Positions 48,257 through 55,580 of a DNA stretch of 64,000 nt are shown piece after piece. The notes beneath the pieces were generated by a model. That model had not been told where the DNA came from, ran no database searches, and saw only the letters and a list, made by a program, of their open reading frames with translations. Source of the stretch: Roseovarius spongiae (lineage in GTDB: Bacteria > Pseudomonadota > Alphaproteobacteria > Rhodobacterales > Rhodobacteraceae); assembly GCF_003651245.1 (NCBI RefSeq), contig NZ_RAPE01000001.1:310001-374000 (forward strand), read 5' to 3'. The first letter of the stretch is position 1, and every line of letters starts with the position of its first letter. The translations under genes were made by a program, and so were the position numbers.

Positions 48257-48288
48257 ACGAAAAAGGGCCCCGGTCGAAACCGGGGCCA
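48257..48288 (-). terminator. Rho-independent terminator for the response regulator gene
   Basis: On the minus strand the perfect 8-bp stem GGCCCCGG/CCGGGGCC (loop TTTCGA) is followed by CCTTTTTCG, a classic intrinsic terminator. It lies about 110 bp beyond the stop codon of the response regulator. Confidence 0.8.
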
Positions 48289-48304
48289 GTTGAGGCAGGG
48301 ACAT

Positions 48305-48357
48305 GCACATGATTTCCCGCATGTGCGACGGTCTATTAGGGCACGGGGACACGTGCC
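48305..48357. repeat. Two short inverted repeats downstream of the response regulator
   Basis: GCACATG/CATGTGC (48305-48326, 8-nt loop) and GGCACG/CGTGCC (48340-48357, 6-nt loop) are consecutive perfect inverted repeats between the response regulator stop and its terminator. They would form two hairpins in the 3' untranslated region. Confidence 0.45.
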
Positions 48358-54663: not shown

Positions 54664-55317
54664 ATGGGTCTGCGCATCAACGACATCGTCCCCGATTTCA
54701 AGGCCGAGACCGACCAGGGACCGATCAGCTTTCACGAGTGGATCGGCGACAGCTGGGCGATCCTGTTTTCGCACCCCAAGGATTTCACCCCCGTCTGCAC
54801 GACCGAGTTCAGCGCCGTGGCCAAGCTGGCGGATGAGTGGAAGAAGCGCGGCACCAAGGTGATCGGCGTTTCCGTCGACGGGGCCGAGGATCACCGGAAA
54901 TGGAAAGGCGATATCGAGAAGGTCGCCGGAACCGAAGCGGATTTCCCGATCATCGCCGATGAGGGGCTCGAGGTGTCCAAGGCCTTCGACATGCTCCCCG
55001 CCGAGGCCTATCTGCCCGATGGCCGCACCCCGGCCGACAGCGCCACGGTGCGCGCGGTCTATATCATCGGCCCGGACAAGCAGTTGAAACTGTCGATGAC
55101 CTACCCGATGAACGTTGGCCGCAACTACGGGGAAATCCTGCGCGCGCTCGACGGGTTGCAGACCGCCGCCAAGGCTGGCGTCGCAACGCCGGTCGATTGG
55201 CAGGTGGGCCAGGACGTGGTGATCCCGACATCGCTGAATGACGACGAGGCCAAGGAGAAGTTCGGCGAGTTCGAGACCGTTCTGCCCTATCTGCGCATGG
55301 CGAAGCTCCCCTCCTGA
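54664..55317 (+). CDS. 1-Cys peroxiredoxin (Prx6 subfamily)
   Basis: 217-residue thiol peroxidase, length and sequence of the Prx6 class. The peroxidatic Cys45 sits in DFTPVCTTEFS and no second cysteine is present, so recycling needs an outside thiol. The C-terminal domain FTPVC-DK-type region includes TYPMNVGRNYGEILRALD, typical of Prx6. AGGAGA lies 7 bp before ATG 54664. It is followed by an intrinsic terminator and is divergent from the aldehyde dehydrogenase. Confidence 0.94.
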   Translation: MGLRINDIVPDFKAETDQGPISFHEWIGDSWAILFSHPKDFTPVCTTEFSAVAKLADEWKKRGTKVIGVSVDGAEDHRKWKGDIEKVAGTEADFPIIADEGLEVSKAFDMLPAEAYLPDGRTPADSATVRAVYIIGPDKQLKLSMTYPMNVGRNYGEILRALDGLQTAAKAGVATPVDWQVGQDVVIPTSLNDDEAKEKFGEFETVLPYLRMAKLPS

Positions 55318-55340
55318 AGGCGGCCCGCCTCAGTTGAAAA

Positions 55341-55379
55341 AATCCCGGCCGGTGTCGAACCGGCCGGGGTTCGCTTTTC
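55341..55379 (+). terminator. Intrinsic terminator after the peroxiredoxin gene
   Basis: Perfect 9-bp stem CCCGGCCGG/CCGGCCGGG (55344-55352 and 55360-55368, loop TGTCGAA) followed by GGTTCGCTTTTCC. An A-run precedes it on the plus strand. Confidence 0.8.
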
Positions 55380-55383
55380 CAGC

Positions 55384-55566
55384 AAGACACCGATTTTAAT
55401 AGATTTCTATGCACTCGAGAATTGCGGTTCGCGCCCGGGACGCCTAAGGTGATCCCATCGAGACCAGGACGGTCGAGACCTATTCCAGAAAGACACGTGT
55501 GGTGCGTAGGGAGCACGTGGGGTAACGGAGGGTTTCGGCCAGGGCTGGAATCCTCCGTTTGTTTTG
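55384..55566 (+). ncRNA. Candidate small RNA with own promoter and terminator
   Basis: No gene covers 55318-55580. After the peroxiredoxin terminator there is an AT-rich promoter-like stretch (AAGACA at 55384-55389, TATGCA at 55408-55413), then about 145 bp of structured GC-rich sequence with a repeated CGAGACC and a GACC/GGTC pair, ending in a second intrinsic terminator: AACGGAGG/CCTCCGTT (55524-55531 and 55552-55559) followed by TGTTTT. The T-run follows on the plus strand only, so it ends a plus-strand transcript of roughly 145 nt, separate from the peroxiredoxin message. It does not resemble 6S, 4.5S or tmRNA. A 12-codon ORF from ATG 55410 is possible but unconvincing. Confidence 0.5.
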
Positions 55567-55580
55567 GCGCACCGGAAGGC

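Follow-up and report, generated by a model that had tools for sequence, protein, structure and literature searches.

In the 263-bp gap (55318-55580) between a peroxiredoxin gene and an EVE-domain gene of Roseovarius spongiae, sequence comparison with relatives points almost certainly to an independently transcribed gene for a non-coding small RNA (sRNA) of the Rhodobacteraceae, usually present once per genome. The gap lies in the window analysed here, a stretch of 64,000 nucleotides. The predicted sRNA is about 109 nt long (55458..55566, plus strand), with its start set from promoter spacing and its end from a terminator. An independent sRNA gene had been proposed in a preceding sequence-only reading of this DNA, and the proposal is strongly supported by conserved sequence beyond the terminator, by stems that covary and by a promoter kept among relatives. 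The RNA is a new family of a known kind, the trans-encoded bacterial sRNAs, and is absent from Rfam 15.

In the window, the gene 5′ of the sRNA is the peroxiredoxin gene (1-Cys type; 54664-55317, plus strand). The EVE-domain gene (PF01878; 55581..56003, minus strand) is convergent and outside the RNA, and is a conserved synteny partner. Both hairpins that had been noticed in the gap are present in 55318-55580. The second (55524-55559) is a plus-strand terminator with 16 pairs and the tail TGTTTT, and the terminator scan listed no minus-strand site for it, which confirms that its T-run is on the plus strand only. The first, a GC-rich hairpin (55344..55368) between the peroxiredoxin gene and the sRNA, was found by terminator scan and folding and is outside the RNA family. 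The scan listed it in the minus direction only, where it has a T6 tail; on the plus strand the tail reads CGCTTTT, and the hairpin may at best be called two-way terminator-like. Of the two terminators that had been read as pointing in the same direction, the second (55524-55565, plus strand) stands, and the first is two-way at best. Because the hairpin at 55344-55368 was listed as a minus-strand terminator only, messages that come from the EVE side on the minus strand may cross the whole sRNA.

The case from the window alone is weak. Terminator-like sites numbered 3 per 2 kb (two of them being one hairpin) against 1.6 +/- 1.6 in shuffled sequences, and the single-sequence fold of 55415-55566 was moderate (z -1.95), with 6 of 200 shuffles equally good. 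A scan result not above shuffles and a fold of this quality are consistent with two terminators that arose by chance with nothing meaningful between them. This explanation is contradicted by conservation, covariation, promoter and synteny, and we give it practically no weight. The scan is insufficient by itself, and it is conservation and covariation that place the second terminator beyond chance. The relatives carry the case.

In a BLAST search with 55376-55580, matches were found in 29 of the 36 genomes of the genus, its own included, and in 30 of 60 genomes overall. The sole match outside the family, in genome G049, is a 32-base stretch, and the structure model found no match in that genome. 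When named genomes were scanned for the core pattern, at least 117 stretches were obtained. Among the matches listed (80), nearly all were from genomes named Rhodobacteraceae, Paracoccaceae, Rhodobacterales or genera thereof, and two were from metagenome bins named just Alphaproteobacteria and Proteobacteria. The genera with the core pattern include Roseovarius, Ruegeria, Shimia, Celeribacter and Pseudooceanicola, and the pattern was also found in Rhodobacter sp. SW2. The core was seen, too, on a contig (L055) that bears the title of an actinobacterium, Enemella evansiae; this is probably assembly contamination. No match was found in a plasmid collection by blastn or in viral contigs by the core pattern.

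Covariance model R1 of the family matches the window at 55444-55575 with 106.8 bits, and no other match was found in the window up to E = 10. For samples of more than 40 genomes, R1 was searched with strict filters. It matched (E <= 0.001) in 186 of 296 sampled Rhodobacteraceae genomes; 182 of the 186 had one match and four had two, and no match was found in 110 under these filters. The 43 of 61 genomes matched in an order-level draw are no independent test beyond the family, as the listed genomes of this draw are all Rhodobacteraceae and many are shared with the sample of 296. In a class-wide sample, 3 of 144 genomes were matched, namely the own genome and two other Rhodobacteraceae, and the non-matching genomes among those listed (20) belong to other families. 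When 20 unmatched genomes of the family were retested with looser settings, one (G091) had a match at E <= 0.001, at a locus without any expected neighbour, and 11 more had matches at 0.0126-0.95. Expected neighbours were present at two weak loci (L181 and L182) and absent from three others (L180, L183 and L184). These mixed neighbours suggest that some absences reflect divergence and that others may be real. Conservation outside the terminator among relatives, a check named beforehand, is present both in the genus (29/36) and in the family (186/296).

The predicted RNA has three hairpins, the third of which is the intrinsic terminator. From 5′ to 3′ on the plus strand, these parts are hairpin 1 (55462..55474; GACC-AGGAC-GGTC, family form CCAGNANGG), whose stem covaries; a conserved unpaired linker, GAGACC (55475..55480; family form GRACC); hairpin 2 (55495..55518), with the stem ACGTGT/GCACGT and the loop GGTGCGTAGGGA; a second conserved unpaired linker, a G-run before the terminator (55519..55522); and hairpin 3 with its TGTTTT tail (55524..55565), which was found by the scan and also covaries. 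The repeat of CGAGACC in the sequence-only reading is present at 55459-55465 and 55474-55480, where it flanks hairpin 1, but the repetition is not retained in relatives.

The exact core with sufficient flank was available for 143 loci; removing redundancy left 110, from which 45 were hand-picked for alignment. RNAalifold on the 45 sequences gave three hairpins with compensatory change in 14 of 24 pairs. Here, 93.0% of cells are paired, and double-sided changes were counted in 84, compared with 23.8 in shuffles; when the partner was slid by 1-3 columns as a control, 19-35 cells were double-sided. Among these close members, double-sided changes were found in 3 of the 4 pairs of hairpin 1 (96.1% of cells paired) and in 12 of the 15 pairs of hairpin 3. 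Helix 2 had zero double-sided changes, so the 45-sequence set is no test of helix 2. Hairpin 2 is near-invariant in these close members, which were selected by the core: the 45 model sequences and the set of 132 distinct loci used for several counts below all carry the exact core and were mostly fetched by it, so that core conservation in them is circular.

Hairpin 2 covaries in divergent members. We rescored 40 lower-scoring loci, at about 32-71 bits, together with the five weak ones. The exact core was found in none of the 40, and the idea of an invariant core was rejected: the pattern scan had selected for the core, and these lower-scoring orthologues lack it. In the divergent members, double-sided changes were found in 4 of the 6 pairs of helix 2, with 94.6% of cells paired; variants of this second stem include ACATGC/GCATGT in L214 and ACGAGC/GCTCGT in L212. 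In 48 mostly divergent matches, all three helices covary, with 190 double-sided cells compared with 51.9 in shuffles and far lower numbers in slid controls, and the percentages from these 48 rows lean towards structure because fitting to the model shaped the alignment, in which three short rows are spurious and two more (L183 and L184) lack syntenic support. Covarying stems in relatives, another feature looked for after the sequence-only reading, were thus detected for helices 1 and 3 in close members and for all three in divergent ones. The CCAGNANGG of hairpin 1, the GRACC linker, the G-run after hairpin 2 and the G-rich arm of the terminator were mostly kept, as seen over 43 of the 48 rows. 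In some members (L199 and L229), the loop of hairpin 2 is down to about four bases. The loss of the long loop in some orthologues counts against one fixed seed in it.

The RNA appears to be non-coding. An open frame across the 90-nt core was found in at most 71 of 132 loci, whichever frame was used, and the core holds a variable gap, which is 4 bases in 121 loci and 3 bases in 11.

Comparison of relatives places a -35 element, TTGCGG, at 55422..55427 and a -10 element, TAAGGT, 17 bp past it at 55445..55450, both on the plus strand. The pattern TTG-N17-TA was found in 112 of 131 distinct upstream segments (shuffles: mean 3.55, maximum 9), and a TTG/TA spacing of 16-19 bp fits 128 of the 131, with three that do not fit. 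In the divergent loci, TTG-N17-TA was found in 17 of 40 and failed in 23 (shuffles: mean 1.23, maximum 5). With spacings of 16-18 bp, 34 of the 40 fit, where the shuffle figures refer to 17 bp alone. These counts suggest that the sRNA gene has its own sigma-70-type promoter. A consensus scan of the locus passed no sigma-70-like site. The promoter AAGACA/TATGCA that had been suggested at 55384-55413 was not supported by the scan, and the relatives put the promoter at TTGCGG (55422)-17 bp-TAAGGT (55445) instead. The predicted start thereby moves to about 55458, where about 55415 had been assumed, and the length falls from the earlier estimate of about 145 nt to about 109 nt.

The usual gene order is ahcY, DUF2853, the sRNA and then a convergent DUF1761 gene (in some loci), EVE, YCII, gpsA and a TsaD-like gene, where the names ahcY, gpsA and TsaD-like are our presumptive assignments, made from sequence. 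We counted neighbours in the 132 distinct loci, all of which carry the exact core, with the loci that have enough flank as denominators. Of 119 loci, 81 have DUF2853 at most 700 bp upstream, and AhcY lies no farther than 1500 bp away in 32 of 93. Neighbours were also seen at the 40 divergent loci, with DUF2853 upstream in 33 and EVE downstream in 32. At least one sought neighbour gene was present at 39 of these 40; L215 had AhcY only, and L205 had none.

A peroxiredoxin gene was found within 700 bp upstream of the sRNA in 2 of 119 loci, and upstream in 5 of the full set of 132. None was found in the 1.2-kb flanks of the 40 further divergent loci. As far as the compared loci indicate, the peroxiredoxin gene of the window is a local gene replacement where most relatives carry DUF2853. 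An association with oxidative stress had been suggested from this neighbour, and it fails because peroxiredoxin is so rare beside the sRNA.

The sRNA shares its strand with the upstream gene, which is DUF2853 in the 81 loci above, as would be expected if it were a 3′ UTR belonging to the upstream message, which would be that of peroxiredoxin in the window and of DUF2853 in other loci. However, the conserved promoter lies in between, the GC-rich hairpin splits the two in the window, and the RNA was retained where the upstream gene was swapped. We therefore consider a 3′ tail very improbable.

On the convergent side, EVE or DUF1761 was found in 103 of 114 loci. This layout would suit a cis antisense RNA or a transcription barrier against the convergent EVE/DUF1761 gene. 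In the window, moreover, no intrinsic terminator stands between the 3′ end of the convergent gene and the sRNA, and the second hairpin lacks a T-run on the minus strand, so that minus-strand messages may cross the sRNA. However, the nearest convergent gene varies (a DUF1761 gene is present in 38 of the 114, and most others have just EVE), neither gene is there in 11 of 114, and the structure covaries and sits outside coding sequence. We regard a role in cis as quite unlikely.

In a search of the whole window against Rfam 15 at the gathering score, no match was found at the sRNA interval. At E <= 10 there were 12 sub-threshold hits, of which the best scored 21.2 bits where 47 are required, and none was credible at the interval. 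The Rfam covariance search that the sequence-only reading had named thus assigned the interval to no family. The RNA was not identified in a literature search that included core sequence strings and DUF2853, with supplements and most subscription papers outside its scope. It may stand unnamed in a published sRNA table, for example under a locus number. The first sRNA list for R. sphaeroides is reportedly that of Berghoff 2009. The RNA 'intergenic 100' of Paracoccus, given as 137 nt (PMC5107571), or the trans-sRNAs of Ruegeria, which are reported in PMC4809877 and absent from its Table 1, could include this RNA; both are known to us by description only.

Among named RNAs, StsR (RSs0827) of Rhodobacter sphaeroides is likewise a stand-alone sRNA of the same bacterial family. 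Its known action is base pairing, with rpoE mRNA (PMC8307010) and with UpsM and the dcw 5′ UTR (PMC8625941). StsR is described as 72 nt and under the control of RpoHI/RpoHII (PMC8307010), in contrast to the predicted length of about 109 nt and sigma-70-like promoter here, and by this description the two appear to differ. SorX (RF02784), another Rhodobacterales sRNA, is a 75-nt RNase E cleavage product of a 3′ UTR (PMC6238624), whereas the sRNA interval has no RF02784 match. SorX has a single match in the window, on the minus strand at 48260-48333, with 47.1 bits against a gathering score of 46.6.

6S RNA (RF00013) is also structured, similar in size and known in the family, but it is shaped as one bulged rod in contrast to the three separate hairpins here. 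The 6S RNA of Ruegeria pomeroyi is 158 nt (Table 1, PMC4809877). At the sRNA interval, the 6S covariance model gave no match even at E <= 10. The only 6S match of the own genome (G000:C9:284392-284548, L031), with 45.8 bits against a cut-off of 46.4, is its probable 6S RNA. With no RF00013 match here and the 6S candidate of the genome elsewhere, we rejected the sRNA as a 6S RNA.

RNAs of the CsrB/RsmZ type are sponges of CsrA. The present RNA resembles them in a hairpin loop with GGA in close members, but has one or two such motifs, and CsrA was not found in the genome. CsrA was found in none of 19 genomes of the genus (the own and 18 others) and in 1 of 31 genomes overall, which is from another family. 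A CsrA sponge is therefore unlikely. A broader alternative is that hairpin 2 and the G-run sequester or guide some RNA-binding protein in place of pairing with mRNA. The shape of hairpin 2 is kept while its stem covaries, as for a structural recognition site, the G-run mostly persists when the stem and loop of hairpin 2 change, and ANGGA-like stretches, two of which are in the window, are also found in many close members. However, the best-known regulator of this kind is the same CsrA, which was not found in the 19 genomes, and we hold a protein-binding role to be possible though rather improbable.

GcvB-type Hfq sRNAs have a G/U-rich pairing region. The present RNA is likened to them by description only, with its G/U-rich unpaired stretches, its intrinsic terminator and its stand-alone gene. 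A trans-acting sRNA that base-pairs with the assistance of Hfq is the best overall explanation, and we favour it with some confidence. The mode of action itself stands at about even chances; transcription, Hfq binding and mRNA pairing are all predictions from sequence. Transcription would start about 7 nt past the sigma-70-type promoter and stop at the 55524-55565 terminator, and the RNA would form its three hairpins, with GRACC and the G-run as conserved unpaired linkers. The presence of hfq and of the terminator suggests that Hfq, whose gene was found in all 13 genomes searched, the own one included, would bind the U-rich terminator tail. Short pairing by the linkers and hairpin loops would then regulate several mRNAs in trans. 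When an antisense partner of the 14-mer GGGAGCACGTGGGG was sought in the own genome with at most one mismatch, the sRNA gene alone was found.

The level of the sRNA would be set by a transcription factor at an upstream box. A palindromic box, ATTTG-N3-CAAAT, at about -65 to -53, recurs upstream of the promoter in many relatives. It scored at least 8 of 10 in 96 of 169 distinct segments compared with about 12 in mononucleotide shuffles, an enrichment that is descriptive because the motif was derived from the same, related loci. Most high-scoring boxes are within a narrow position range and some are elsewhere; the window has a degenerate copy (55393..55405, plus strand) that scores below 8. The nearby ahcY gave the idea that the box is the site of a methionine/SAH regulator, which was rejected because the MetR and SahR motifs differ. 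The MetR site is given as ATGAA-N5-TTCAT, and the SahR site as a 20-bp palindrome that was found, among the Rhodobacterales studied there, in Hyphomonadaceae (PMC4239095).

In the boldest form of these ideas, the RNA would be a family-wide riboregulator of the Rhodobacteraceae that is chiefly a structured ligand of a protein, through the shape-conserved hairpin and the G-run, with a dedicated factor reading ATTTG-N3-CAAAT. We think this combination improbable and put it forward as speculation. If true, it would add a global regulatory RNA class besides the 6S and Csr RNAs, in a group where CsrA was not found (0/19 of the genus). Because it is present in 186 of 296 genomes, usually once, with its structure and place kept, and is not in Rfam, the sRNA is a strong candidate core regulator of Rhodobacteraceae at the post-transcriptional level. 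The model and the promoter define a target for deletion in laboratory strains, and provide a route to its annotation in existing genomes and marine transcriptomes.
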